Below, in pieces: positions 20,001-63,207 of a stretch of DNA of 64,000 nucleotides (position 1 is its first letter; each line of letters starts with the position of its first letter). The stretch lies in assembly GCA_029964075.1 (NCBI GenBank), contig CM057142.1, positions 6,215,770-6,279,769 of the forward strand, given 5' to 3'. A program made the translations under genes and the position numbers. The stretch comes from Patiria pectinifera. Its lineage: Eukaryota > Echinodermata > Asteroidea > Valvatida > Asterinidae. The notes beneath the pieces are model-generated. The model was not told the DNA's origin. It saw nothing but the letters and a program-made list of their open reading frames with translations, and did not search any database.

Positions 20001-20970
20001 TACTTCTGACAAAGTTTGGTTGAAATCGGTCAAAATATGTAAGAGCAATAGACAATGTCAGTGTTTTTTACTAACTAACTAACGGACTAATGGAGAAACA
20101 TGATGATTTGTTGGGCTGGTATCCCGCAGCCAAAAAGTATTGCTTCAAGCATTCCCTCCCCCCTTTTTTTAAAAATAAATTGAAGAAAAATTTACTTTCA
20201 GTACACAGTTACCCTCAAGATTGTCAAAGAATGGGACGTCAACATGCTTACTGTGTTATCTGCACCTCTGCCAGTTGACCTCGGACAAACAAGGATTTAT
20301 TTTGGACTGGCCTTATCAAAATATGATATTCAATCGCATGATATATGTGATATGATGTCAGTGTGGCTGTGTGGCGTGTGCCAGGCGCATGCATGCTGAC
20401 TGCCAGTGCACGCGTACGACACCCGCCGACCTGACCGCTACCGCACTGATAGCAGAGCCCATGTCCAAACACAGCCCTTGTTTAAAAAAAAAAAAAAAAA
20501 AGCACTCATAAAAAAATGTCGTTAAAATGTTGGCACACTCTGGTCTGCATTTTTGCGCCCTGAATAACACAGATATTTGTGGCTTTAAGCCTGCACACAT
20601 TGGGGAGAAATAAAGTTTGTACAGTTTGTAATGAAATAAGTTTTCTTGAGTTGGACGGGGGATTTTGAATAGTTGACTGTGGTTTTGAAGAGGTAATTTA
20701 TTTGCAGTTTGGCTGGAGATATTTCACAGAAGCAAATTTGTGGTTAGTGCTTGGCCAATGATTGATTTAAATGTTTTTTTCTTTGTTTTCTCATTGGGAA
20801 AACTTTTTTGTTCTCAATAAAATGTAAAATGTTTTGTTACTCAAGCCATGTGTGGCAGAACCATACGCGGTTAGCAGTGGCCTATTTTTGGTTAGCAGAA
20901 AATTAGAGCTTGTCAACACACTTCTTGTAAGCAGGGATTCTGAGCTTAAAAGTTGTATTTTAACACCAAA
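14090..20970. other. No gene supported apart from a SINE fragment
   Basis: AT-rich with homopolymer C tracts (18584-18594, 18638-18649), a CT tract near 16380-16430 and poly-A at 20482-20500. No coding exon was recognised. Confidence 0.5.
15898..15977 (+). repeat. Truncated copy of the SINE tail
   Basis: Carries TTGGTGAAGGGCAAAACCTA and TTTCATCTTATGAACAG, diverged from the other two copies. It has no tRNA-like head. Confidence 0.5.
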
Positions 20971-20978
20971 CGGTGTCC

Positions 20979-21307
20979 TTAAGCTTAAAATTCCATGCTA
21001 AGCAGAAACAGTGAATTCAGACGCTGGGATAAACTGGGTTTTCATGACCACCAAATGGTGGCCTTAAGCTTAAAATCCCACGCTAAGCAGAAACAGTTAA
21101 TTTGGATGCTGGGATAAACTGGGTTTTCATGACGACCATCGTGTGGCCTTAAGCTTAAAATCCCATGCTAAGCAGACACAGTGAATTTGGGTACTGGGAT
21201 AAATCGGGTTTTCATGACCACCAAATGGTGGCCTTAAGCTTAGAATCCCACACTAAGCAGAAACAGTGAATTCAGGTGCTGGGATAATAGACTGGGTTTT
21301 CATGACT
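20979..21307. repeat. 85-bp minisatellite, four copies
   Basis: Units start at 20979, 21064, 21149 and 21234, exactly 85 bp apart. Each begins TTAAGCTTAAAATCCCA and contains CTAAGCAGAAACAGTGAAT and CTGGGATAAACTGGGTTTTC. The units end in the small palindrome CCACCAAATGGTGG (disrupted in copy 2). A degenerate partial unit may precede the array. Confidence 0.85.
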
Positions 21308-21650: not shown

Positions 21651-24239
21651 ACTTGGGACAATATCATTTGGATTCTTTTTCGAGAGACAAATGCACGCAC
21701 ACTTTTGTCAAATTTTATGAGATAATTATTCAAAACGGACTTTGGTCCCTGTCAACCAGGATCAAAAAACGGTTTACAGACTTTTTTGTTTCGGTTGATG
21801 AATATATTGATTTGCTGTGAGCTGTTTTGCGTTTTCCATATGCTTTGCGGCAGTGTTGGTTGCGCAAGTCAATGTTCATAGTGGAAGCATGTAGATGCCG
21901 TCGACATTACTGGAATGATAATTGAAAAAGCAAAGAATAATAAGTGAGTTTTTTTATTGAGATGAATATACCACTATTGAGACAGTTTGAGAAAATTTGT
22001 TAATCCTAACCCTTGCAGATACTCCAAAATACACCGAGAGGTTTGTAAGATTTTGGTTAAACTATATAAAGATGAAGAAATGACCTTAATGCAAAAATAC
22101 TAGAAGCCATTGAAGCACTGAGAAGTATTTTTCAACACCCAGGGGCGGATCAAGCTTTTGTGAAATTGGGGGGGGGGACCTGAATACCATCTGAATCTTG
22201 GAAACTAGCGAACAATGCGTGTCGCTCTTCATTGCGGCATACTTGCCGACAACCACACAGATTCTGCTGTTATCAATTCCAAAACAGAAATGGCAAAATA
22301 CACGTCTGCATCTTTAAACTCTTGGCTTTGGGAGGCATGTGCTCAGCATTCTGTCCTGTCCGTTGCCCCCAATCTCACCAATCAACCTTAATGATGAGGT
22401 CTCAAAGAGATTTAACAAGGTCTTGGCTCGGCATCCAGGGGGATTATCTCACAAAACTGCTAAGTGGTGGAATCTGCTTATCAGGTAAAGTGCTATCATT
22501 TGTCGGCTTAAAGTTGGTCTTCGACGTATTCAATTTTTATTTTCTGTTTTGGGCATCTGCAACCCTCTGAAGAAAAAAAACCTTCTTTGGTGGGGTTGCT
22601 TTTGCACCTCGAGTGCACCAAAAGATCTGCCTGAATTATTGAAATTTGAAAATAAGCTAGAAATATGGCAATTAAAAACAAAATTAAGGGGGGGGTGAAC
22701 TTTAATACCAGCAGGGAGAGAGCAACTTTAAGTTAGTGTAACACTACATTTGCTGCTGAATCTGGCTTACCAAATAACTACAACAATTTATTTTCTGCTA
22801 AGAGAGCTTCTTTCGCAACTCTGTCCGGATTTCTGACCATCCCCATCTGTCTCCGCATCTCTTGTGATGGATCTCCGATTTCTCCATCTCACTCTTCCCT
22901 CTAGCTAGGCTGGCATCTTCGGTCTCAGTCTTGGTCCCCGCTGCCTACTGACCTCCTGACATCCCTTGTGTCCCAACACAGACAAAAATCCAATCCATCA
23001 ACAGTGTCAACATTAGTTAGCCGGCCTGTGAATCTCCGTTGACCCTTGTTAGCCTGTTTTCTGTTTTATTCTGTCAATCTAGTCTCCCTCTCCTCTATAT
23101 TGGCAAGAGAAAGAAGCTATGCTCAAAAGGAACTGGCGGAAGATGGTCAGAATTCAAAATTAGTGGAATTATCTTGGATCGATACTTCCTGACAGTGTTT
23201 GCCAATTTGTGTACTACTTCCACCACTTGAGAATGCCTGGCAATTGGACCAAGGTTTTATGTGCGAAGCATGAAAAGCTGAAACTGGTCAAAAGCAAAAT
23301 TCATCATATGACATCTTGCCTGGTCAACTAGTTTGCAGATATTGTCGTTGCTTTCTCAAATGTGCCCCAGAGTTTTCTTGGGGTGTGTGTGTTTTGTTCT
23401 TTTTTCTTTGTTCTTCTATTGCCATTAGTCACAGATGTCCTTGAAAAATTTGCTTGTTGGATCAGTCCCATGCGCCTACCAAAAAACCCAAAACACTTGC
23501 ACAACGCAAGGGTTCAAAATTAACTGGGCAAAAAACCTGCTGGTTAGAAATAACTGTTTGCTTATCGCTTACCACACTAGCTTGCTTGCATTGGCCAAAC
23601 TTAAATTGGGAACCGCAAACAAAAAATGTGTCTACTGACTGCCTTAAGCAGAATCACCAAGACGTGCATTCATTTGATTTTAAGTTGTATTTTCTTTTCC
23701 ACTTCCCTGTAGTAGTTGGATAAATGTAGATATGTTTTGTCTGTTTTTATGGGCTATTGATGGTTTGCATGAATTTTGAACTCTTCCCGTCACCTCGCTC
23801 CCTCCAAAATGCCACACCCCGGAAGTCAGTTGGAAGTTTTTTGCCGATAAAGTTTTTTTTCTTAGTCCTCCTCTGCATAAAATGAGTATAAGGATGCATC
23901 CAGTGCAGTGAACTTCTGGGAGTCGTGTACAGTTGACTGACATCCTGAAGGATCCATTCTAGAAGAATCTCTTTCTCTGGCCTTTCTTTAAAAAAAAAAC
24001 TAGACTGTTCCTCTGCTCCCCTGTTTGGGATCCATCATATCTGGCAAGCAGACACATTGGAGCAGTAGACATCGTTACATAGATGAATGTGGATGTTGTG
24101 GAGGCACCGTCCTGCATCTGTCGGTTCGTGACACGCAGTGTTTTTGCTGTACATGATGCTGTCATCGTTGTGACAGGAGGTTTGGCCAAAGAAGTTCAAG
24201 TGGAGTTCGCTTGCATCGCACGCAGGCAGTAATTAGTAC
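21651..24239. other. No gene supported
   Basis: Contains one hAT-like terminus, CAGGGGCGGATCAAGC, near 22139 followed by a G10 run; otherwise unremarkable. Confidence 0.45.
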
Positions 24240-25310
24240 AGTGCCGTGGATAAGATGGAGAGGGATTGGGCTGTTGTGTGATGAGGGGTTTGTGGTTGGG
24301 CTGGGTTTGGATGGCCAGGGAAGTCGGTTTGTTGGTTAGTTGGTCTGTTAGTTGGTCTTATGGTAGGTTTTTTGTTTGGTTGGTGGATGGGCTGTAAGTT
24401 GGGTTACACCTCTATGTTCCGACACCCCTATGTTCCGACTGCACATATTCCTATTCCTAACCCTAACCCTAACCCTAACCCTAACCGGAAGTAACACAAT
24501 CTAGGTTGTCGGAACATAGGGGTGTCGGAACATAGAGCAGTCACCGTAAGTTGATTGGAGGTTTTTTGTTTTTGTTGGATGATGGGAGTTGATAAGATTG
24601 TTGATTACATGGTTGATGAGTTGGTTTGTTGGGTTGGGTTGACTGGATTGTTTTGTTGGTTAGTTGGTGTGGTTTGTTGATAAGGCAGTTTGTGGATGGA
24701 TTAGTTGGTTTGGTGGCAAGCTAGTGTGTTGGTTAGTTGGTTTGGGATAGGTGGATTAGAAAGTTGATTAGACGGTTTATGGGAGGTAGGTGGATCAGCT
24801 GGTTGGTTTGTTAATTAGTTGGTTTGGGATGGATTGGTGATTATATGGTTTGCTAGTTGTTTTGCGGGTAGTCTGTGGACAAGTTGGAGTTGGTTGGTTT
24901 GTTGGTTACTTGGTGGGGATAGGTGGATTAGAAAGTTGGTTAGTTGGTTTGTTTGTTAATTGGTTGGTTGGGGATGGATTGATTAGATGGTTTGCTAGTT
25001 GGTTTACAGGTAGTGTGTGGATAAGTTGGAGTTGGTTGGTTTGTTGGTTAGTTGGTGGGGATAGGTGGAGTAGAAAGATGGTGCATTGGTTTATGGGCGG
25101 TTGGCGGATCAGTTGGTTGGTTTGTTAATTAGTTGGTTGGGGAATGGATTGATTAGATGATTTGTAATTTGTTTTGTTGACTGTTATTGGATCAGTTGGT
25201 TGGTTTGTTGGTTACTTCGTTGATATGTGGATTAGAATGTTGATTAGTTGATTTACTGGTAATGGGTAAATCACTTGGTTGATTTGTTGGTAATATTTAG
25301 TAGGTTTGGT
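24240..25310 (+). repeat. GTTGG/GTTTG-rich degenerate minisatellite tract
   Basis: About 1 kb dominated by repeated GGTTGGTTTGTTGGTTAGTT-like runs on the plus strand. It has extreme strand asymmetry (almost no C) and is interrupted by the telomere-motif element at 24402-24545. Apparent small frames here (such as 24850-25128) are artefacts of the repeat. Confidence 0.75.
24402..24545. mobile_element. Telomere-motif inverted-repeat element, copy 1
   Basis: A 144-bp element. Perfect 30-bp inverted arms (24410-24439 and 24508-24537) are built on ATGTTCCGACACC units and flank a loop holding about five CCCTAA repeats (24456-24486). The inverted similarity extends outward to termini GGTTACACCTCTATG and GGTGACTGCTCTATG. 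An 8-bp direct repeat GTAAGTTG (24394-24401 and 24546-24553) looks like a target-site duplication. It sits inside a GTTGG-rich tract. It matches copy 2 at 35195-35335 in length, architecture and TSD size. Confidence 0.7.
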
Positions 25311-28300
25311 GGTATATTGGTCAATAACTGAGCACATACAATGGTCTGTTTGGCAAGTCGGCATTGGATTTGCGCAATAGACGTTTTATCTAACTGGTAA
25401 CCAGTTCCTTGGTTGCATGATTGAATAGTTTGCTCTGTTAGGATTACTGTGTGTCTCATACTGCTATGCGTGAGTTATTGCTCGGGAATTAATGAACTTG
25501 TACATGACCCAAACCATTGCCCCAGAGACTAAACAAAGTCAGCTGCGGAGTTAATGACTGGGCATGCCATCACGTTTTAGCCGCGGACGCTCATCAGCAT
25601 GGGTTCAGGGACCTCTCTCGCTCTGTGATTGAACGGAACAACTGGATGTCACTCAAAGAAATGAAACTTTCCATTCGTGCACGAGTGTCAGCCAGGGACC
25701 GTTGGCTTTGTTTTGTCTTTTTGGAAAATGGTTTGGCATTACATCATCAGTTTGCAATGCAGGACGGGGTTTTCTTGTGAAGTGAAACTGCGGCATGGAG
25801 TCGTCACTCCTCGGCGATTTTGATTAATTACGCTATCTTTCGCACTAATCTAAGACACGTCAGTCAAGCTTACGTAGACAGTATTGTGTTTCACCAAGAT
25901 TTGCGCTTTAGCCTAGCCGGAAAAACGTTTGGAGAATTGGAAGTCGCGGCGTGAAGCTGACTCTGTTGTGATCGTATGCAATTAAACGCATTAAGATTTT
26001 CGCCGGGGTTATTCAGAAGCACTGAGATGTTTCCTTCAGCGAGCAAAGAAGAAAAGATAGAAACGAAACCTCCGAACTGAAAGTTTTGTGCGATGTGAAC
26101 ATTGCCTTTGTTAGTCAGGAATTCGCAGTTGATGAGTTTGAGATGCAAGAGGGATGTTCGACCGCATAATTTAGACGTGAATAAAGTTTTGAGATAATTT
26201 TTTTTCACTTTGAACAAAAAATCTTTAATCCAAGGACAGTGTACTCTCTCCACCTGCCCGCTATGTCCAAGAAACCTCTCCATAGAACAGTTATCGAAGA
26301 CAAGAAAATGCTTACAGAAAGAACTGATCAAATTGCCCTTAATTCAAAATTACGGACTTATAGCACCGGTACTTGACCATCTGGTACTCCTGTGTTGTCC
26401 CTGGTGCGAACAGTTCCAAATTAAAGGCATATCATTTGCTTTTCATGCATTTTGTTCATTTTCAATAGTTACATCACTCAAAATCCAAAGAAGAATCTTC
26501 AAAACCTAACTTTAACTTTCTGTTCAGTGGATATTACATTTATCGAGAAAAAGTGAAAAACCATGCAAAACTTTTTGATCACGAAACAAGTTTTCAATAG
26601 CAAGCTTTATTCCGACATTCTGATGGTACCCTGTACCACATTGGTACCCTGTATAGTACCACAGTGAATGGCTGCTAACTCAAACTGACAGTCTGGTACT
26701 TTCCAGGAAACTGGTTCCCTGACACCCCCCTCCCCTGGAAAGTTCACTGTGATTACTTTTTAATCAGACCTCAATTAGCAGCACAATGATCAAAGTTTAA
26801 AAGGATGGCCTCGATTATTCAAAGTTTAAATAAAGTTGACAAATGGGAGAAAAGAAAGTAAACTGATTGCTGGACATGAGGTGAATGTGAAGAATCATCC
26901 TGTGTGCCTTCATTAAATTTATGAATAAGATGGATACGTGGAAAGGAAATTATTACTATGAAAACTATGTTGATGAAATTATTTTGGGGGTTAGGGAGAT
27001 GGTAAAATGAAGCATGATTCATTGGCAAAACGTGTATGTTTTGATTTTTTGCACCTGGTAATGACAAGAGAACTTACAGCTTGAATTGTCAGCAGGCAAC
27101 TGAAGATGATGACAGTCAAAAATCTACAAAAAGATTTTCAATAACTACTTCTGCATTGGCAGAAAGTTTGCTAACATGAAAAAGCACCGAGGAAAAATAA
27201 ACTGTATGCAAATATATATGAAGGTTGTCCTCTTCAGTGAAACTCTGTCCTGCCCAGACATAATCTGACCATGAAGAAAATTCCGTCTAATGGCACTTCA
27301 ACCCTCATCAGACTTGGCTTCATTTAATCAGAGATACATCAATTTGGAAAATCCCTAAATGAAAATGGATAATGACCTTTACAAAATGCCGCAGGAGGCC
27401 AGACACATTGCAGATGCATTAAAAAAAAATCTAGAATCGAAAGAAAGAAACATGGAGTCTGTTTTAGGGTAGAGCATGTACGCTGGGGTTATTACATGTT
27501 AACAGGGTTGAGATTTAATCAGTGGAACTGTCGTGTGGCTCGGGGAAGGTCAGCAACGTGCTTAGCGACAGCAGTGTCCGTAAGGACAAGTGGACGTCAA
27601 CACGTAGAACCCCCAGCGAGTCGCAATCGCCGTGCAACAAGGACGAGACTGGCAGCCAGCAGATGGAATTATAAAAGAAAAGATGCTCATTTGAACAATA
27701 TTTCAATTCATCATTCAGATATGAAGTGAAAAAAAATAATTAATGACTGTGTAGCACATGGTTGTCAGACATCCGCAATAATTTCATTGCAAGGGATAGA
27801 GGCCCTTGAGCAGGGAGCGTGAGAAAGCTTGATGAGATAACTATAAGCAGAGTTGGTGTCGTGCGTAGTCATAGAGGGCGGTTTTTGTTTGTAGGAGCTG
27901 TGAGTTGTTGGGCATAGATGACTTGCGTATTGAAGTGTAGCATTGAGGCTATATAGGTAGTTGATGGAGATTTGAGACGGGGGGGGGGGGGGAATGTTAT
28001 TTGAGAAGGGGTTACACGAAGGGTGACAAGTGTAGAGACGTCTCCCCCAACCCCTGATTAAAAAAAAAGAAATTGTCTTTAGAGAGCTTCTCATTTGAAG
28101 TCCCATCTACTAACTCAAAAATTACTATTTATTGGAAATTTTTACAATATCCTGATGATGACGTAGACAGTTCCGCTGAATAGTTTTCACCCCCACCCAC
28201 ATTTGTCCTGTATGACTGCATCTATCTGTCATCACACCTGACATTTCCTTCCTGCTTTTCGTCAACCTTTTGCACTTCCAAGAAATGGTTTGGGTTATCC

Positions 28301-29287
28301 TGCCACTGATCTCTCTCGCAGACGGTGCCAACGTGTTTCAGCTTTCACTCCTGCATCTTTCTGATGATGCGGGCGTGCAGCTGTAACCGAGAAGATGCTG
28401 GAAAAGATGGAAGATAACCCGCCTAATAACTGTCTTAAATGCCACCGTCCTGACGATGTCAGTTAGCGGAGTATTAACTGACTCGGAAGCTTCCCCGCAG
28501 CGCCTTCTCCGACTACGACAAAACGAAAGTATCTTGTGCTGCTAATCGGCAAATTGGTTCTAACGAAGCTGCAATTTGGCTAATTGCGCCAGCATCGTGG
28601 TGGAGCCGCTGAGTTCATCTTGGCTGCATTAGCTTTTGCGTGGGCACTGGATTTTTTTTTTTCTCTGCCAAATCGCGACGGCAAGGGGGGGGGGTGTTTG
28701 TGAGCTTCCTGGAACGGAGCTTGGCAGCAGACTACATCTCTGAATTTTTTATGACTTACTTCGCCGGTCATTGTCATCAGGGCTTAAATACCGCCATAAC
28801 TCATCCTACATTGCGGGCTTAGCGCAGCTGACTCGCTTTAAACCCAAGCTCCAAATACCTCGCTGTGTTGGACGATCATCTGTTACTCGTCCTTCTTTAA
28901 CATCCTCTTCCTTTTCTTGTCTTTTTTTTCTCCTCTGTTTCTTATTCACGGTTCATTCGCGGTCTCGGACCGACTGGCTAGTGGCATTGATGTGTACAAT
29001 CATCTGTTGCTGTGCGTGGGTGTTCATTTGGCTTGATGAGGGCGATTGTCATAATGGCTGTTAATTCACTCAAGCATGACGGGATGGTCTTCTCCAGTAC
29101 ATTTTCAGTTGCACAGTACAATGCACCAAGATCCCGTTCCTCATTACTTTATTTCGTAACAACTTTCATTACTCCAAATGCCGTCTTTCTATCAGTCTGA
29201 TTAGACAATCGTCCTGATGCCAGTTGCATCACCCAAACGCGATTGCACTATCTTCTCTGTAATTTGTCGGATGAATACAGAAGCATT

Positions 29288-29374
29288 CCACCTACGTAAT
29301 TGTGTTTTTGTCTTATCCACCTACGTAATTGTGTTTTTGTCTTATCCACCTACGTAATTGTGTTTTTGTCTTAT
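29288..29374. repeat. 29-bp tandem repeat, three copies
   Basis: Three nearly identical units containing CCACCTACGTAATTGTG followed by TTTTTGTCTTAT. This is a recent local tandem duplication with no coding role. Confidence 0.85.
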
Positions 29375-30228
29375 CTTTTCCTTTCACCAAACTTCTTCCA
29401 GGTTTTTTTTTTTGGAAGTGCTGAGTGGTCATAATAATGATTGTGAACTTTTCTGACCCCAACTGTATAAGTTTTGTAACATTTCAGGCGGAAATTTCTG
29501 AAATTAAGTCCTAGCACTGCTAATCGCTTTTTCTTTTGTAATTTCTTTATTCCTTCATCAAAAGTGTTTGATGGGAAAACTCAGATCGGTGACTAGCTCA
29601 TCTAGTTGAAAGCAACACGCCCACTTTTTTTTCCCGAAATAGACTTCAAGGATGGTTCCAGTATCTGACTTAAAGTTGTGCATCACTTGAACTTCATGTT
29701 GCTTGACCCAGGGGAACCTTAACTTCCTATAAGACCTTCTAAATCATCTTGATACTGACATGTTTTGTTGGAAAGCTTAAAATAAATTTCAGATCTAATT
29801 TAAGTTTGATCTGGTCTACTCTATAGAGCGTGCAAGTTGACCTCAAACGCCTCCGAAATTGTACGAGAATACAGCCCATCCGGGCACCATGTTAAGGATC
29901 TACAACATGTGTAATATCCTATATTTTGCATTTTTTGTGTGTCTTGACTGGGCTTATCCAATCAAGGGCAACAAATGAGTACTTCAAAAGAAAAGAAAGC
30001 ATCACAATTTACTCTATCTGCTCCGTTCACAAGTACCCCCTCACTGGCAAAGAAAGTACAGTTGGGGGTGATCGACCGACGCCATCTTGCCTGACCGACC
30101 GACGCCATCTTGCCTGACTACAATTCATTTGCCGCGAAGCACGGCCACTGCGTGTACATAGTACAAATCCCCTGGTGTACGTGCGTCACACACAAGGAAC
30201 GGTGCGCGTCAACCAGAGAAATGTCCCG

Positions 30229-30296
30229 CCAATGGGTTTGCTCGTACCCCCCGCCCTGCCTGTTTGCAGGGCGGGGGGTACGAGCGAAGCCCATGG
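30229..30296. repeat. Strong GC-rich hairpin
   Basis: Arms of about 31 nt with few mismatches, containing CTCGTACCCCCCGCCCTGC and its exact complement around a 6-nt loop (CTGTTT). Just upstream (30072-30117) CGACGCCATCTTGCCTGAC is duplicated in tandem. Confidence 0.75.
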
Positions 30297-30950
30297 AACG
30301 TCGTTGCTAGTAAAAAGGGCGCCCTCTTTCGTCGGTGCACGGAGCCTATAGTAAAAATATTGTGAATTGATGACTATTTTAAAATCAAACATGTTGACCG
30401 TACCTATGTTCATTCAAGCACACAGGTAACAATTGGATAAATTCAAACGCATGATATGTTACATGAAAGATAAACGTCGAATTCAATCTTAATGATCCAT
30501 TCTGATCTGATGTTGTCAGATCAAATCAAATCTGATTCCCCCCCCCCCCCTTTTTCCATTGGAAATTTGGCAATTTGAGAACAACTTCCCATGATTAGCG
30601 GGTGTAACATAAATTTCGTTTTTGAAACATTTTATGCTCCCCCCCCCCTCCCCTCCCCGAAAACCCTGTGTTTCACTTTTGGCTATTTATTTTAACGCCC
30701 CGTGGAAAGCGAAGAGCACCACCTATTGTCTGACATTAACCATGCTTTCGGTTTTGAATAGCGACCCCATGGGAAAATGGTGTCCAGCCCCCCCCCCCCC
30801 CCACCCCACCCCACTTTTTGATTTTACGGAGGCCGGGTGTCCAGTGAAAAAAAAAAATGTCTATACCTTTCAGCATGGATGAAATTGGGCGTCCCTCCAA
30901 TGTAAGATCCAGCCCCCCTACCCCAGTCGCCCCCCTCCCCCCCAGGATGA

Positions 30951-30970
30951 GAACCCTGGCTACGCCGCTG
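30951..30970. mobile_element. Single terminus of a hAT-like element (GGCTACGCCGCTG)
   Basis: The sequence ending CCTGGCTACGCCGCTG is the reverse complement of a CAGCGGCGTAGCCAGG terminus. It abuts the GATC-rich tract, which also appears to the left at 30497-30537, with AATCTGATT on both sides. This suggests an element of about 430 bp inserted into the tract, but the matching left terminus was not found. Confidence 0.35.
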
Positions 30971-31210
30971 ATCTAATCTGATTGAGTCTAAATAAATCTC
31001 ATCCATTCTGATCAGATCTTATTTATCCTGATCTGGTCAAATTCATTATCTAATCTGATCAAATCAAATCAAATCAAATCCATTTTGATCTTATACTTTC
31101 CGAACCCAATCCAATGCGATCTGATCAGATCCACCCTGATCGTATGTAAAACATTCCAGTCTGATCCAGTCCTTGCTGATCCCATTTGATCCACTTTGAT
31201 CTGCTCAGAC
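30971..31210. repeat. Degenerate GATC-rich tract (CTGATC/AATCTGATC)
   Basis: Dozens of TGATC, ATCTGATC and AAATC motifs at irregular 8-15 bp spacing. They probably descend from a short tandem repeat. The same motif is present at 30497-30537 across an apparent insertion. Confidence 0.6.
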
Positions 31211-34200
31211 ATCCGCCCTGTTAATCCAGTGGACATAGTTGATCTCATCAAATCCATTAATCCAAAAAATGACTCCATATTAAGCCAGCTGGCCCAGTAC
31301 GTTCCTGTATCTCCACAGAATTCCACCATTCATCCCTCATCCCATTGTGACCATCTCATCTTCCAAAACAGACTCGAATTGGACACTCGACCCAATTGTT
31401 CCTCTTTATTTCACACTCTTAACAGCCCAATGAGCACATCTCTGCAATTTACTTGTATTTAAGTAATTATAACCGCCGCGTTCTCTGCTGGAAGGCAGCC
31501 ATCCATATCATGGAGCCTTAAAAGATATACATACAAAGTGGGATACAGAAGTGGAGTGTTGTGCTGTGCAGCTGACAACTTTCCCATGCAGTTATTGCCT
31601 CTGTTCTCTACCTTGTTGAGGATGGCTGTTTGAAGCTGTATAACATGTATGATGTAAAAAATAAGTAGGATGAGAGTAAGAACCCATTATACCTGGTAAT
31701 TGTTGTGATAGCTACAGATCCAATGACAGGCGATGAAGATTTAATAAAGCTAGAATAAAGAAGTAGTTTTGTATTGACAAGGTAAGGTATGGCTTATGGG
31801 GTTTAAACCCCCTTCTTCCCACCCCACCCACCCCCAAAAGGACAAAGGGTTAGGGGTAGAAGTGAACTCAAGGTACCATTGGAAAAATAGCTAGGGCACA
31901 AAATGAACCATTTGCGTTTGTTTATGGTGTGAATCGAGGACACACACGTGCAACATCATCGGTGAATCGAGGACAGGAACCAAATCGAGGGCGACTTCGA
32001 TTAGAAAACATGTACAAAACCAATGAGAGTTGTTACGAAAAAGTTACAAACAAAGGAAAAGTACAAGCAAAGGAAAAGGGAAGAGGAACAAAAGAATATC
32101 CTCAATTTACATCATAAACAAATGTGTGTGTACATGTGCAATCATCTAACATGAACATAGTGTCAAATGGTGTTTTGTGGTTCCCCACCCCACCAAAAAA
32201 TATGAAGCCTTTTTCTAGTTAATTTGTCCCCCTTGAAAAAACTATCCATTCCCTATTTGCTTAGCTTGAGTGTGTTTTTTGGTCATCCGTTCTGATTGTT
32301 TGTCCATTAGGACTGTAAACCTAATCTTTTGTTATGTAAAGCTCTCTCTCTCCCTCCCCTTCCCCTTTTTTTTTTACAAAAATCATGGTTCCGTGACACT
32401 GCCACACTGCAGCTGTCTTTAAAAGAAATGAAAGATGCATATAGTCATTGAGATAATGGAGATACTTATTAATTTAAACGACATAATGGAATAGACTGGA
32501 CTATTTCAGGACCGTAAACCAATCTTTTTCGCATTAATACTTTAAGATATAGACCAAAATGTAATTTCATTTAATTTTTGGGATAGTGTTTAGACACTCA
32601 GATGCTTAAATATGCAACAGGTTGAAGATAATGAAAACAAAATGGCTTACAAAAAAAAGTTATCAAATAAACTGCACTATTTTCAGTACCAGGTTGAACA
32701 AAGAAATTGACTGAAGTGGGATGTGGACCAAAGACCTTGTAACACTGTAGTGGTGCTCTAACAACTGAAGTAGGTTTTTTGTGTACATAGGTAAACATTT
32801 TTCCTCTTATTGAGGGGGGGGGGGGGGTTGAAGGGAAAGTGCAATTACAAAAAGCAGTCCCTGATGACAGTTAGCTCAATGGAAGAGCCAGTGTATAACC
32901 CTTCTGTTTAGCCCCGCCCATCCTCAAGATTGTTTACAATACTGAAGCCACCACATATGTGGCTGTTCGTCCATTACCGTTATAATTATTCCAATTCGGG
33001 AATAATCAGTTTGGCGGATCTCTTTCAAATTCAGACTTTGATGAGAGGATCACTGATAACATCAGCTGGAATGATTTCAGTTGTGTCTTCCCCGAACTGA
33101 GCGAGTCAAGAGATACTGTGCTTTGCTTCATGGATGTCTTTAAGATTAAAGGGAATATACATCATTTGCTTTTGCTGTAACTTTCAGAAATGAAATGGAT
33201 TTGGGGGGTTGGTAATATATAGCAAATATTGTTACGCTGACTTTTTTGACATTTTGGGTTCGTAGGTGCTATAAAAACCAAGAAAAACAATCATTTTCCT
33301 GTAGTTTGGTTCCCTGACTCCATTTAAGATGAAATGGAGCAATTTATAGACATTGGGGAATTGTAAGGTCAGGGAACCAGTCTAGCTGGCTTGTACCCAT
33401 TCATAGGTGTGTAATCGATTGCAAACAAACGCGGACTAACTTAATATGGTCAATTAGGGCCAGTATTTGAAAAAAGCCAGTTTTTTCCAATGCTGGTCGG
33501 CCGACCAGCGTTGGAAATTGATACAAAAATACCACTTTTCTTGAAAATGACAGTATACCAGGTGCCATGATTTTACAGGATGCTTTAGACTATCATTCAC
33601 TAACAGTCCAGTAAGGTATTTTAAAATAATTTGGTAGTTTATTTTTTGATGTTTGCAAATGTTGTATATTGCCTTTAAGCCGCATCCCAATGAATTGGCT
33701 ACGGCTTGCGATGACACATGCGTCTAATGGATTGATTGAAGCCACTTCCCATAGTCACATGTACAAGTGCCTGTCGTAGCCAAGGAATTTCGGACATGGC
33801 CTAAGTCTGATATTTCAAATTGTGGTACTCCACAGTACATTAGTTTGTGTGATTAATTAAAAGTCTTTCAGTGTCTTTTTATTTTTGCCACTGAAGCTCA
33901 ACAATCTTTTGCAAAAATTTCAAGTGTTTCCTTCAAAGAACAAAATCACATGACCAGGAAGGGGGCACAGCACTTTCTATTTTATCCTGCGATGAACAAT
34001 CTGGATTTTTTTAAAGCTAAAACAACACATGTATCCATTTGCAATCCAATTGGACATAGACTTGTACAGCCTTGGGTCTTTTCAGCTGGGTTTGTGTGGG
34101 CATATCTCGTGCACTTGTGTGTGTGGTCAAGTAATTTACTCGCCAGGTTGAAAGATTCAACCCAGTTTGCTCTGCCGATTTCCCAGAAAACAGGTCGTTG

Positions 34201-35180
34201 AATATTCAATAGTCCTCTCTGTTTTCCCGGCGCTGGTGCTATTTGCTGTATCAATCTGTCAGTGTGTAGCGAGGGGGGGGGTGCATCAGTCTTGGACAAG
34301 AGCCAAGATTCAAGAAGGTAATTGCAAGATTTTATCAGGGATGCTGAGGAGATTACTGGTTGCTAAACGCATCAGGAGGATGCGTTGCTGGTGCTGGGGA
34401 CGGGGGAGCATAAAAAGATGTATCTACTGAACTCCACTCTGGCAGCCATCTTGGTTTTCACACAAATTTATAATTATAGCTAAATTACAGGTATCAGGTT
34501 TAGGCCAGAAGCTATGATTTTGGAGATAGTGCTGCAGCTATGCACCATCTTGTTTAGTGTCATATACTGACGCTTCAGTCACAGAAATAACTGTTATAAA
34601 CGCATCCACGTGTATGCAATGCGTGCACAAACCAATATGCACATGCAGTGTGTTCCAGACCTTCTCTCTGGGCTTAACTGTAAAGTGCACGGACTCCAAA
34701 TGCTGGTTGCAAAGTGGTAAAACTTTGAATTTCAATAGCTCTTACACAAGCAAGGGCTGTATCCAAATTACTTCTCCTTGACCAGCATTAACACACATCT
34801 ATGGGACTGTGACTACAGCGGCGTCCATAGGCTTATGTGTGACTGCAAGCCATAGCCAAGTCATTTTGATGAAGTTTAACTTAGTGGTAAGAGACAGTAT
34901 TGTGGTGCAGTCTCTTTTCAATGAGTGTGAGTTTGTGAGTAGACGTAGTTTGCCACAAATTTTTAGTTCAGGTATTTTGCCCTTAATAGAGAAGACTTTT
35001 GACTAGCAATAAGTGGGCGTGAACATCCGGGAATTGTTTACATTGGCTTATCTAGCTCCCAGACCTATGTTCTTGAAACTCAATGGTTCTTCAGTCTGGA
35101 GTGCTGAATGGTAATACACAGCAACCGATGAAAACTGGTGTGCAAATGAATAGATGTTTTCATTGGATGATGTCAGCCGT
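31211..35180. other. No gene supported
   Basis: AT-rich with a G tract near 32813-32827. A tRNA A-box-like string TTAGCTCAATGGAAGAGC near 32872 lacks a B-box. Confidence 0.45.
33305..33382. repeat. Nested inverted repeat
   Basis: TGGTTCCCTGA pairs with TCAGGGAACCA, and inside it CTCCATTT-AAGATG-AAATGGAG forms a second stem. Possibly a small foldback element. Confidence 0.55.
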
Positions 35181-35194
35181 CCCCACCTAGGTAC

Positions 35195-35335
35195 GTGGTC
35201 TACCCGATGTTCCCCAATACCTATGTTCCCCAGAAATCCTTAGGGTTAGGGTTAAGGTTAGGGTTAGGGCTAGGGTTTATTCTTAGGGTAAGGATTTTGG
35301 GGAACATCGGTATTGGGGAACATCAGTATGCACCC
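35195..35335. mobile_element. Telomere-motif inverted-repeat element, copy 2
   Basis: A 141-bp element. Its arms at about 35206-35242 and 35289-35324 are near-perfect inverted repeats of GATGTTCCCCAATACC type. The loop carries TTAGGG repeats plus degenerate variants, in the opposite orientation to copy 1. It is flanked by an 8-bp direct repeat CTAGGTAC (35187-35194 and 35336-35343). The termini GTGGTCTACCCGATG and GGGTGCATACTGATG are each 15 nt up to ATG, as in copy 1. This parallel structure indicates transposition rather than telomere healing. Confidence 0.7.
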
Positions 35336-36059
35336 CTAGGTACAGATTTGTTAGTCTGTAGGAGTAGTCCATTCATTGTACTTTTTAATGTGCTTCAAGT
35401 CTTTTGGGACCTACTCAAATTCGAAGGAGGGTTGGATGTAGTTTTCAATGATGTATGAGGATGAAAAACTGGTATTGTGAAAAGAATGATAAGGCTTTTG
35501 GTTGTGGCGTGTCAGTATGTATGTCTGTAATGGATGATGCATAGAGTATGTGTTTCCCTCGGTGTCTGGTCGTGGAGGGATTGGGACGAGACACTGTCAT
35601 TTATTCCACCCAGCTCATCAATTGTAAGTTTCTCTTGACATCTCTGGTGTGGTTGGCTTCCAGAAGTTGCTGCCTCATGTTGTTTGAAGTAAATAGGTTT
35701 AGTGGTGTGTATCAAGCTTTGATGATTTGGAAGGCTTGGTGTTCAACAAAAAATGTAATACGAAACAAATTTTGAAATCACGAAGTGTGGAAGCACAGTT
35801 TCAATACCAAACTGGTTTTAAATGGGAATGGGGGGGGGTGTTCAATTAAAGATAACTCCGCTTTTTGGAGGGAAAATGTAAATGTCAAACCATTCATGTG
35901 TGCGTTCTTTTGTACTGCAATGCGTGTGTTTTTTCCCTCATTGAAAAAAAATTGAACTATTCTTGGATCCTTGTATAATGTATTTGTTGACAACAATGCT
36001 GAATTTTTAATATCGCCATTTGATGTGCATTTGCCGTCGCCTTTCTGGCAACTCCCTCC

Positions 36060-38330: not shown

Positions 38331-38813
38331 TTAATGGCTGATGGTAAGAGTAGATGTACTAGATGGCCATGCTTTAAGATTGTTATTATCTTCATCTGTG
38401 CATTTGACAGGAAGAGCAAAGATTTCTTGGGATGGTGTTCGGGAGCTGAGACGGTGAAGCAACCTCCTGGTTGTGGATTCCAACTCAAAGAGATGATTGT
38501 CCTCATCCTCCGGGATCAGTCTTCGTACGGTCTCCGCCAGTTGGAACAGGTACTCCATGTTGTGTCCGCTCATCCCCCGGGAGCTCAGGATCTCTGTGGC
38601 TATAGTGTGCACCGGGGCGGGGCCCATGTAGTGGGGGCAGTCGGGGGTAGCGGTGTAGACAACCACGTCGTGTTGCGAGCCAGCCCTGGCGTAGAAGGTG
38701 GTGTTCTGGAATGTGTAACCACCCAGTCTGCATTCCCTGGTGTTCAAGTGGCCAAGGGCTGCTAGAATTTGTGCTTCACCCTGGAGAAGGAAGGCCATAC
38801 CCCACGTCACACC
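38331..38813 (-). CDS. CHAC1: CHAC1-like gamma-glutamylcyclotransferase, terminal coding exon
   Basis: Third and last coding exon, 160 codons plus stop, after a CTATGTGCCACAG acceptor. It opens with GVTWGMAF (residues 75-82), then the catalytic-glutamate segment LNTRECRLGGY. Here E101 aligns with the general acid/base Glu of CHAC1 (E115 in human). Downstream are VYTATPDCPHYMGPAP and ILSSRGMSGHNMEYLFQLAE, both typical of the ChaC C-terminal half. All expected catalytic motifs are intact, so the enzyme looks functional. About 40 residues after the conserved fold, ending TISH, are lineage-specific and Ser/Thr/Asn-rich. The exon is separated from exon 2 by a 3979-nt intron that carries repeats. 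Confidence 0.94.
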   Translation of the reverse strand, partial: GVTWGMAFLLQGEAQILAALGHLNTRECRLGGYTFQNTTFYARAGSQHDVVVYTATPDCPHYMGPAPVHTIATEILSSRGMSGHNMEYLFQLAETVRRLIPEDEDNHLFELESTTRRLLHRLSSRTPSQEIFALPVKCTDEDNNNLKAWPSSTSTLTISH

Positions 38814-41721
38814 CTGTGGCACATAGAAAATAGATAAGACATGAAATCACTCAGTACTTGGAACGTAACAAGTAATTTGGGGTGGGGGTGGGGGGGGGGG
38901 GTTAAGGTTGTTGTTTAAAGACCGGTTCATACTTCCAGCAAAATGAAGGCAAACCCAAAGTGAATTTGACGTCATGAAACATTCGTTGCCAAGATTGCTG
39001 GAGTTGAAACGTGTTCAACCTTTACATAAAAATTGAGGTTTGTTTTTACACTGACTATGAACCAATCTGTAATAAAAGAGAGGGAAAAATCATTGCATGG
39101 AGTAGAGTCCCTGGCTACGTTCAAAGCTTAAACTGTTAATTGCAGCGCTTTTCTTTTTCAGTGAATTCAAAAATCTTGGAGTAAGTTGCCATGTACATGG
39201 TTCATTTAAGTTTTTTCAGTCAATCATTATTTTTATACTGCAGCACAAAACAATGATGCATCTCGATACTCGAGGAAAATTGTTTCTATGTTATATTTAC
39301 TAAGTACTGAATTGTGCTCAGATATAGGGAGTATGGTATTTTTTTTCAAACAATATGGTTTTTTTTGGTAATTAAAAGTCTCTGTCACTGAAAGATGCAG
39401 TCCTTATAAATCATGTACAAGTCCTTTGAAATCACACTAAAAGTTTAGGTTGTTTTTGTTTTGCAATTTCTAGAAGCCTAGATGTGACATGAACGCATAT
39501 AAGATTTCAGAGGTATGTATGTTTTATAATACCAGCAACTTTTAGGGGTTGAGTGGAAGTGTTGCATAATAACAGGAATGATGTTTTGAAGAAAAAAAAG
39601 CTTAGCATTTCAACCATTATAAATATAGTATTTTCCCACTTGTATTGTTGTTTTTATTTCCATTTTCAATATCATCTTTTTCAATTTCCAGGTTCAGGGG
39701 AAATGTGTAAATGCCAAATGACGTGTGAAAATAAGCAGAATTTTACATTTACTTGCATTTGGGCGACCATATTACTTATAACATTGAAGTTTTTTTTTAT
39801 TGTTAAAATGGGATTCGTTTATGCACACTGCTGGTATAAACACAAAATATACATGATTAAATTGATGCATATACGTGTATAAGACAACATTTTGCATTTC
39901 CTCTATTTTTGTAAACAATTGTTTGGAGAAAAGCCAAATGTTCAAAGGTTTTAGTTGTTTATGTCTTACATGTAAAATTATTTACTGCAATCTATGCACT
40001 CAGTTGATCCTTTGTTTTCCTTAAAGCACTTACTAATGAATTGAACATAATGAAATTCCAGCGTGTAAATAAAGTTATTTGAAGTTGGTTAATCCAGAAT
40101 ATGTCCAGAACAGTGAAGTCTAAAATTTCATCTAAAGCTGTCAGCTTTTAGGTTGTTTTGTCCATTCTTCAGTGGCAGATCTGGGGGGGAGGGGTCTATA
40201 CCATATACCATATTTCAATAGGGGGCGCTGTTCAAATTCGACGATTATTAACACTAGATTACAGAACGGTGTACCGTATTTTGAACAGGACATTATACCA
40301 GTATAATTTTTTTTGGGGGGGGGGGGGTTTCGACTTATTTTTTTGGAATTTGTATGATAATTTTTTTTGAGAGAGCTGTTTTTTGGGGTTTTTTTTACCC
40401 CCAAAACCCCCCTCTGGATCTGCGCCTGATTATGTTTATAACTTATAAGAGTGCGTGTTTATAAATTACCTAGCAATTTTTTTCTAAAAAATATATATTG
40501 TATAAATATAACAAAAATGAGTTTCTTTCAGCATCAGAGAAACAATAGGCTTCCATAGAAATAATTCTAGATTTGACAACCTATATCATACCAAAATTGA
40601 TAGCCAATGGATACGCTACGGCCACACATGTCAATGTTTTGATTCTGTGCTCTGACCAAGTCCATCAGGCAAAACAGGCTGAAACTGTTATAATAGCCGA
40701 TATATTCATATATAAAGAATAATCCCCGTGCCGCCTCTAATCTATCGATCGAGCACAGCAATATGGGCGATTAATCAATAGCCCCATCACATTACCAAAC
40801 ACCTTGCTATAGCCAGGCCTTGGGCCAGACCACATATGCGGTGCCTCCCCTTCAAATCTCGACCAGTTCCCACGGTCTACCACTTGATAATCTATTGGCT
40901 AGCCTGGGATATGCATTTTCACGAGTGCGGGATATTTTGTAAAGGCTGCTAATAACGAAGAAGTATGATATAACGAATATTATTACGTAACCAAAACGCC
41001 AAAGTTTGTGAAAATTTTGTTTGTGATCCTGGTATGTATGACACGCGGTTTCCTTGTCACGTACGTTATGGTGCACCGAATCGGGATACTGATTAACAAA
41101 GACAACATTAGAACAAAGTTGGTAGTAATTGTCAAGGTTTATCCGTATCTTGCAAATTCAAAAGGGTAATTACACAAAAATGTACTTGTAAGTCTTGCAT
41201 GATACTTTGTTTTGACATCTCAGTAAATCCAAGTTATTCTTTTTAGCCACGAGAATAATTCACAAACTCACGAATTTTCATACCATTTTTTTGGTTCGCC
41301 ATTATGTTTCGTCATTTTGTTTGTTAAATATAATCAAAGATGGCAATACAACCATATATTTTACTTTTGGAAAACACCTCTAATTCTTTTCCCCTTTTTC
41401 ATTACGTAAATCAAGATGCCGAGTATAAATTCCCCGAAAAACCTAACCGCACCAGCGCTTCCAAAACAGTTCCAGATAAGTTTCGCGGTTTGTGCGTGCG
41501 CCGCTGCGTCGGCAAAATGAAAAAGTTTTTTTTCAATTTTTTCAATTGTCTCAAACCGCCAAACTCATTTGGTTTGACTGGAATCCTGCTGCTGCACAAT
41601 TTTAACGTGTTTTTAAATTTTTTCGTTAAATTCGAATAAGCTTTATACCTCCTCTGACTCCTCATATATTTGCACTAAGTTTAGTCGGGGCACCATTGTT
41701 GCAGTCATGCACACACATGCA

Positions 41722-61188: not shown

Positions 61189-62114
61189 CTGTAGAAGAGA
61201 AAACGAGTAAACACCAAAAATGTAGAGTTAGAATTCTCTGTGTGTGGATTGTTTTTCTCACGCCTATTAAAACAACCTTGCGGTTAAGTTAAGAAGGCTT
61301 TATACAGTACAAGAGACCTTGAAGACGAAATAAAAGAAAACGAAACATCAAACACTCAAGGCACAAATGAAGTGGATGTTAATATCGTTTTTGAGGGATA
61401 AGATTGGATGGGATCAATACAAGGGTCCCACTGTCAGATTATCATAGGTGTTATGCTGGAGTCTGTTTTGAAACGCAGGAAAATGGCCTTGTGTTTGACA
61501 GCACAGCGAAGATATCCTTCGATGGGAAAACTGAAAAGGCATTAACACACTCAACAGATTCTAATGAAATTGAGCACAATTCTTCCATATCCATTGTAAA
61601 AGATAAAACATTGACAGCATCACACCTTTGTTGTATTTTTTGTCGTGACTACAACTATTTGGAGGCTGACAATTGAAATAAACGATGAAAATAAAAGTGA
61701 AGTAACAGCAACTTTTTTTTTCAAAATACGATCGTCTGCCTTAAGTTTTTGCCATCCTCAAGCCAACTGAGTTTACATAAAGTATTCGGTCCCTTAAACA
61801 ACTTCATGATCATCAATGATAGATCAACATGACGCGCGCACGTTGAAGTACTCTCCTCTCTAAAATGCAATTACTCGATACGGTTTGTGCTGACGTCACC
61901 GCTTGGCGACTGCCGATCGGGTTCAATTTTGGAGCACGAGCCATGCGCCGCTCAGTTTTGACAGATGGAAAAGATATTAATGTGATATCTGAACGTGTGT
62001 AGCTCACATCACGCGTCCATTAACGAAACAAAATCGCGCTCAACACCGAAGTAATTTCCTTCGAGTTGATGGCCAGGCAAAAAGAGGGTCAGGATACAGT
62101 GAGATAATACTTAC
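61189..62114 (-). other. Delta intron between main and penultimate coding exons
   Basis: A 926-nt GT-AG intron interrupting the intracellular domain. No repeats or coding sequence are recognised inside it. Confidence 0.8.
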
Positions 62115-63207
62115 GAAATTTGCACGATGGAACACTTAATATTGTGTCTCGGCGTGCTCTCCGTTGACTGACATGTCGAGTGCAACGATTCAGTTCTTTT
62201 GAGCTGAGAAGCTTTCTCATCGTAATAATAATAACTATCCTCCGCGTCCAGTCTCGGCAACGAGTGTCTCTGGACGTAACTCATGCACTCCTGTGTGCTT
62301 ATTTTCTCCACGGGCAGGCTCTCGTGGTATGTCTCCTTGGCGGAGTAGTCTTTGCACTTTGATTTGCTAAAATTGTCACTTTCTGTATTGCAAACTTTGC
62401 TGCTGATGCTAAGCAGCGGGAGGACTTTCTCCTCCTGTGAAAAGTTGTCTCTGTACATGTGTCTGTTGTTGGGCGTCGAGTCTGTTTTCTCAACGTCCCG
62501 CGCACCACGTGCGTGGCTGTGGTCCACGTGTTGTCTTCTGTATACTACAATAATGAGAATGATGATGAGAATAATGATGAGCACACCGAAGGACACGTAG
62601 ATAGCAATCTGGGTGACATCGGACAAGCCGTAAGAGGTGTGGATGTACGGTGAGCTGGTTCCCACATCACCTCCTCCATTGCCTCCCAATGAGGAGGCTG
62701 ATGAGCGATCGTTGGTAGTACTACCAGGGGTGACCGACGGCTCCAGCGTGGTAGTTGAAGCCGTCACATCATGCCTCTCGGCTATTCCACACGTCTTACC
62801 AATCCAACCAGCAGGGCAGGTACACACAAAATCCAGGGGATTCGTAAGATCCGGGGAGCAGGTGCCTCCGTTTAGACACTGGTTGGGCAGACAGGCCGTC
62901 GGTACGGTGCAATTCCGGCCGGTATATCCAACATGGCACAGACACTCGTAGCCGTTGACCTCATGGTCCACGCAGGTAGCTCCATGGGCACAAGGGGCGG
63001 TAAGCTGGCACTCAGTCAGCTCAGTCTCACACTGGGCGCCGGTGAAGCGTCTAGGACACACGCAACGAAGGGTGTCGAAGTCAGCCACACAGGTACCGCC
63101 GTTCTTGCACATATCGGCCGAGCACACGTTCCTGCTGCAGGTGCTTCCAGTATATCCATTGGGGCAGTCGCAATAGAATCCACTCAGAGTGTTGACGCAA
63201 GTACCTC
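62115..63207 (-). CDS. Delta-type Notch ligand: last EGF repeats, transmembrane helix and most of the intracellular domain
   Basis: A 1093-nt exon (acceptor TTGTTCTCCAG, donor GTAAGTATT). It completes one EGF, then encodes three more: CSADMCKNGGTC, CQLTAPCAHGATC and CLPNQCLNGGTC. A Ser/Thr/Gly-rich juxtamembrane linker follows, then a hydrophobic helix IAIYVSFGVLIIIL... encoded at about 62540-62608, with a basic stop-transfer YRRQH. About 140 intracellular residues follow, rich in Lys, Ser, Tyr and acidic residues, with lysines that could be ubiquitinated in Mindbomb/Neuralized-dependent endocytosis (family knowledge). I saw no clear NxxN Neuralized motif. The apparent stop right after CSIVQIS is only the TAA inside the GTAAGT donor, so the protein continues in the next exon. 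No DSL domain is visible, but the EGF-TM-tail order and the C-terminus identify Delta rather than Jagged. Confidence 0.94.

Follow-up and report, generated by a model that had tools for sequence, protein, structure and literature searches.

The 64,000-nucleotide (nt) stretch of the Patiria pectinifera genome studied here (C14:6215770-6279769 of the 613.5-Mb assembly; called the window below) contains two short elements in which a telomere-like repeat array lies between inverted arms. Both are very probably non-autonomous cut-and-paste foldback transposons, with asymmetric 12-nt tips of the GG type, arms assembled from 16-bp units, and a (CCCTAA)n core carried as cargo. The elements insert with duplication of the target site, fall into families, and have modular arms and a core that changes in hexamer steps.

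A first-pass annotation of the window had placed the two elements at positions 24402 to 24545 (144 bp) and 35195 to 35335 (141 bp), and we located both there (Table 1). Its description of GG or GTG tips and of two ATGTTCC units per arm was accurate, and the units are spaced at 16 bp. The telomeric cores are oppositely oriented, as had been noted, with CCCTAA on the plus strand in element 1 and TTAGGG on the plus strand in element 2, and the 8-bp direct repeats reported on both sides of each element are perfect (element 2 also fits 9 bp). The tip preceding the first ATGTTCC had been given as 15 nt; it measures 12 nt in all four arms. The arm sequences of the two copies are indeed unlike each other, since one copy is from family 1 and the other from family 2. 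At 141 and 144 bp and with terminal inverted repeats, both elements are miniature inverted-repeat transposable elements (MITEs), and they lack coding capacity since these lengths leave no room for a transposase gene. Folded as single-stranded DNA and compared with shuffled sequences, they gave z scores of -10.0 (element 1) and -7.05 (element 2), with none of 200 shuffles equally stable.

Table 1. Parts of the two foldback elements and their target-site duplications, in window coordinates (TRF, Tandem Repeats Finder)
Feature	Position	Strand	Remark
Left target-site duplication GTAAGTTG, element 1	24394..24401		8/8 with right copy
Element 1 (family 1), 144-bp foldback MITE	24402..24545	+	
Element 1 left arm: tip GGTTACACCTCT (12 nt) and two ATGTTCC units at 16-bp spacing	24402..24439	+	
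Element 1 telomeric core (CCCTAA)n	24456..24486	+	TRF: 5.2 copies, 100% matches
Element 1 right arm: tip GGTGACTGCTCT (reverse strand) and two ATGTTCC units	24508..24545	-	
Right target-site duplication GTAAGTTG, element 1	24546..24553		
Left target-site duplication CTAGGTAC, element 2	35187..35194		9-bp reading, with one-base shift, also fits
Element 2 (family 2), 141-bp foldback MITE	35195..35335	-	Core orientation opposite to element 1
Element 2 arm: tip GTGGTCTACCCG and two ATGTTCC units	35195..35232	+	
Element 2 telomeric core (TTAGGG)n, slightly degraded	35240..35277	+	TRF: 6.3 copies, 87% matches
Element 2 arm: tip GGGTGCATACTG (reverse strand) and two ATGTTCC units	35298..35335	-	
Right target-site duplication CTAGGTAC, element 2	35336..35343		

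Families of foldback elements across the genome

Exact matches to the spaced motif ATGTTCC-N9-ATGTTCC number four in the window, every one within the two elements, and 3810 genome-wide (1925+1885), compared with 10 (7+3) for a reversed control. Near-identical copies of element 1 are present elsewhere in the genome. We recognized four families. Family 1 has the unit ATGTTCCGACACCCCT and the tips GGTTACACCTCT and GGTGACTGCTCT, and family 2 has the unit ATGTTCCCCAATACC(G/T) and the tips GGGTGCATACCT and GGGGTCTACCCG. Family 3, with the unit TCCGAAGTCCCATTGG in long arms of 16-bp tandem repeats, also carries a telomeric core; a 21-mer of its unit has 341+345 matches genome-wide (control, 0), and 12 consecutive matches at 16-bp spacing occur at C4:13010117-13010313. 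Family 4 (unit TCATAAGTCCGACGCC) is a coreless foldback seen as a single copy between two family-3 elements (L099:2916-3270), with an 8/8 duplication, AGTCCACC, at both flanks. Scored 16-bp units number 1 to 7 per left arm in family 1 and 1 to 5 in family 2, i.e., the arms consist of tandem repeats of variable unit number, as is characteristic of foldback elements.

When hand-read 38-nt ends were compared in one ungapped register (5000 shuffles, P values uncorrected), families 1 and 2, 1 and 3, 1 and 4, and 3 and 4 matched at P ≤ 0.0004, and families 2 and 3 matched at P = 0.0004 to 0.007; families 2 and 4 gave no significant match (P = 0.08 to 0.33). The core junction CCCTAATCCTA(A/T)GG is common to families 2 and 3, and its family-3 form has 90+91 matches at ≤3 mismatches (control, 0). 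The telomeric core therefore probably predates the divergence of these arms.

Elements were also selected by exact tips alone, a procedure blind to arms and core. This gave 79 elements (40+39) with family-2 tips and 329 (164+165) with family-1 tips, with a count of 0 in each control. Within the first 80 nt of the 79 family-2 elements, ATGTTCC occurs in 73, CCCTAA in 72, and a telomeric run of ≥10 nt in 67 (base-shuffle mean, 0.28); inspection among the 12 without such a run revealed several arrays that had decayed or that reach past 80 nt. Among the family-1 matches listed, the length is a multiple of 6 in 85 of 100 elements, which is what gain and loss of hexamers predicts; the pattern allows lengths of 114 to 144 nt only, and many of the 100 may copy one insertion. 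Forty-three of the 100 family-1 elements among the matches listed lie on C7 between 0.03 and 9.6 Mb. The same contig holds 10 of the 16 Merlin matches described below and is perhaps a transposon-rich chromosome.

Strong conversion within elements had been put forward in the first-pass annotation as one cause of the self-complementary arms, and our counts did not support it. In family 1, 24 of 108 arm variants (0.22) have a mirror counterpart in the opposite arm of the same element, versus 0.21 in the arms of other elements, which is no excess. The corresponding values in family 2 are 50 of 140 (0.36) and 0.29, a small excess that could come from subfamily structure. The simplest reading is that the founder of each family already had matching arms.

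Insertion sites and internal telomeric arrays

The 18-mer (CCCTAA)3 has 779+1253 matches genome-wide (control, 2+2). From the matches listed, we compiled 64 distinct loci (58 on C1 and 6 on C2, with overlaps counted once) and classified their arrays by eye. Fifty-seven lie within families 1 and 2, truncated copies included; five belong to family 3 (L051, L074, L076, L077, and L078); and two are outside all families (L063 and L089). By an automatic measure, an inverted repeat of at least 10 bp encloses 56 of the 64 arrays, versus 115 of 2000 random window positions. Foldback elements with a TTAGGG core account for most of the sampled internal telomere-like repeats, and no chromosome fusion or break is needed at each site for most of these arrays.

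Among the 64 loci and the two window elements, ends were defined by script in 47 elements. Setting aside those in two shared host repeats left 25 for the scoring of duplications, including L061 and L062, whose flanks are the same. Perfect duplications were found in 13 of the 25 (9 scored at 8 bp and 4 at 9 bp), and 18 matched at 7/8 or 8/9 or better, compared with 0 of 600 mismatched flank pairings. Three elements scored at 8 bp (W2, L082, and L084) also fit a 9-bp duplication with a one-base shift.

Empty counterparts of filled sites were found in one larger host repeat, whose uninterrupted 25-mer site has 32+37 matches at ≤2 mismatches (control, 0). With the flanks of the filled copy L002 joined, the empty sites L129 and L130 align to them over the full 600 bp (559 identities, 40 mismatches, and 16 gaps for L129; 547 identities, 40 mismatches, and 22 gaps for L130), and both empty sites contain a single ATCAAATT where filled copies carry two. 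These are paralogous sites, from this host repeat only, and the comparison is direct evidence of precise insertion with an 8-bp duplication. With the tips and arms found genome-wide, the scored duplications, and these empty sites, the proposal that telomeric repeats were spread here by transposition with 8-bp target duplications holds, and it extends to 9-bp duplications.

Several observations weigh against this reading. The ATCAAATT flank of one larger repeat is common to 18 of the 47 elements with defined ends, and a second host repeat is common to 4; 7 of the 25 scored elements fall below a 7/8 or 8/9 duplication match; and three of the five fetched empty-site candidates (L126 to L128) aligned only partially or more poorly. 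The sample of 64 arrays comes mostly from one contig and was picked by three perfect hexamers, and it does not amount to 64 independent insertions because it includes many copies of one larger repeat. Also, the 7 Merlin loci (of 16) and the arm-flank stretches examined yielded no larger element that has these termini and encodes a transposase.

Since 18 plus 4 of the 47 elements share host flanks, many copies have spread as passengers of larger repeats. Segmental duplication, which the first-pass annotation had named as an alternative origin of the two window loci, accounts for these 18 and 4 elements but not for the remainder, nor for the window's two copies. That segmental duplication or carriage by larger repeats was the main mode of spread is very improbable: the shared hosts and the common flanks of L061 and L062 fit such a history, but the remaining elements lie at different flanks, as do the window's copies with their perfect duplications. 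As the sole explanation, it is refuted by the elements at different sites.

Break repair offers another account of short internal arrays. In the sections of PMC2246262 drawn on here, telomerase-assisted break repair is proposed as the source of internal telomeric sequences in mammals (rodents and primates). Those arrays are likewise short internal (TTAGGG)n tracts, but each would have arisen by repair at its own site, whereas the arrays described here are transposon-borne. It is scarcely credible that the latter are ordinary internal telomeric sequences made site by site by telomerase in double-strand break repair. The two sampled arrays outside the families would suit that origin, but 62 of 64 sit in complete or truncated foldback elements, and fixed tips and arms recur at unrelated sites with 8- to 9-bp duplications and with empty sites. 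For elements with tips and duplications, per-site repair is refuted.

Two side observations concern the larger repeats. The host repeat with empty sites (L126 to L130 and L002) carries GGTGGGACTCGAACCCACGACC or close variants. By eye, this sequence resembles the T-arm of a transfer RNA (tRNA), so the host repeat of these composite copies may be tRNA derived. At L111 (C1:1003000-1010000), one element each of families 1 and 2 are separated by about 2.5 kb, and similar pairs occur at C1:5306145/5308772, 6605963/6608616, and 7650426/7652981; given this recurrence, both may be passengers within a larger repeat.

Origin of the core and the candidate transposase

A transposase supplied in trans would cut at the tips and insert the element, duplicating 8 or 9 bp of the target. 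Most likely, an ancestral hairpin gained the core at its center, for example, through a break healed by telomerase or through capture of telomeric DNA; the core would since have been carried as cargo, with whole hexamers gained and lost by slippage. The family-2 core lies at the center of a near-palindrome, AAATCCTTA...TCCTAAGGATTT, a position that would suit a broken hairpin tip having captured telomeric repeats. As cargo, the core probably has no function of its own.

Alternatively, the core could be a working part kept by selection, in which telomere-protein binding or a G-quadruplex aids transposition, the protection of excised DNA, or the direction of insertion. We consider this unlikely. 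In its favor, three families with diverged arm units all carry the core, the junction CCCTAATCCTA(A/T)GG is found in both family 2 and family 3, and in tip-selected family 2 CCCTAA is recognizable about as often as ATGTTCC (72 and 73 of 79). However, family 4 moved without a core (one copy, flanked on each side by AGTCCACC), slippage by itself can maintain the regularity of a tandem array (as in the length steps of 6), and the cores of some copies have decayed. It is quite unlikely that the core is a functional module recruiting telomere-binding proteins, telomerase, or a quadruplex-handling activity for excision, end protection, or target choice; if it were, this would be a transposon co-opting the host telomere system.

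Merlin transposons have GG ends and duplications of 8 to 9 bp, and the first-pass annotation had suggested Merlin- or hAT-type mobilization. The genome has 16 Merlin-type (PF12762) matches, and the duplication length fits. However, at the seven of these 16 loci that we examined, with 1.3 to 1.6 kb on each side, neither paired arms nor a telomeric core was present. Each locus had between 0 and 2 isolated near-matches, each to a single tip or unit, and the clearest inverted repeat starts with GGAAAAATTC, unlike the tips of these elements. Merlin-type mobilization was thus not borne out at these seven loci, and Merlin is a doubtful partner transposase. The 9-bp duplications and GG tips would argue against hAT, going by the general traits of that family.

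Mutator-like transposons (MULE/Phantom) produce duplications of 8 to 10 bp, mostly 9 bp. The genome has 30 Mutator-like (PF10551) matches, with open frames of up to 644 amino acids (transposase frames alone). By analogy with described foldback families, a Mutator-type enzyme is our best guess. It appears the most likely class because asymmetric tips, tandem-unit arms, and duplications of 8 to 10 bp match Tm1, going by the sections of PMC3169594 used here, and because comparable reasoning led to the assignment of Tetris to Mutator in the corresponding part of PMC4079207.

Seemingly unpaired arms were considered as possible ends of long autonomous elements, a candidate we rejected, as a partner arm was found nearby, often degraded. 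Among the twenty stretches examined, eight of them 9.9 kb long beside seemingly unpaired arms, the partner arm is missing at L108. The 2.95-kb span between the two family-3 copies at L099 contains short open frames only (no family search was run on it), and for this reason we read the copies as two separate elements.

Comparison with known foldback elements

We recognized no prior description of a MITE with a telomeric core among the open-access papers listed in our searches; a Repbase or Dfam entry may exist. The TU elements of sea urchins are foldback elements whose arms contain short tandem units and whose duplications are 8 bp long. We liken them to the present families by general description rather than by sequence, and the features considered include no telomeric core. 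A 2011 report by Coates and colleagues is said, by its title, to concern MITEs with hitchhiking (GTCY)n microsatellites; our elements are similar in carrying a tandem repeat, here a telomeric hexamer between tandem-unit arms.

In the sections of PMC3169594 drawn on here, Tm1 of root-knot nematodes is a Mutator/foldback family whose coding members resemble Phantom/Mutator. The sea star elements resemble Tm1 in their asymmetric short tips, variable-number tandem arm units (13 to 15 bp in Tm1; 16 bp here), MITE-like members, target duplications (8 to 10 bp, mostly 9 bp, in Tm1), and paralogous empty site. They differ in unit sequence and in their interior, which in Tm1 carries a histone hairpin motif or encodes a Phantom-type transposase; telomeric repeats are not mentioned for Tm1 in those sections, and no coding member was found here. 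Tetris of Drosophila virilis, as presented in the part of PMC4079207 used here, is also a non-autonomous foldback with 8- to 10-bp duplications and tandem repeats within its arms, and its transposase is given there as unknown, with Mutator suggested. The repeats in its arms (TIR-220) differ in kind from those described here, and that part mentions no telomeric core. The same part lists sea urchin among the hosts of foldback elements.

Within the window, element 1 is surrounded by a GTTGGT-rich tract (24300-25082), near a 142-bp tandem duplication (24800-25082), and GC skew is 0.26 in 24001-28000. Other features are an 85-bp unit in four tandem copies (20964-21306) and two minus-strand open frames that, by eye, resemble a ChaC-type gamma-glutamylcyclotransferase (38331-38822) and an epidermal growth factor (EGF)-repeat membrane protein of the Notch-ligand type (62111-63127).

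Telomeric repeats at internal positions are commonly taken as traces of chromosome fusion or break repair. Because most of the sampled arrays in this genome arrived within a foldback transposon, internal TTAGGG signals could be mistaken for fusion points. The families also provide many replicated insertions, in some cases with empty counterparts, that could be used to measure how a short telomeric tract affects fragility, replication, and the binding of telomere proteins.

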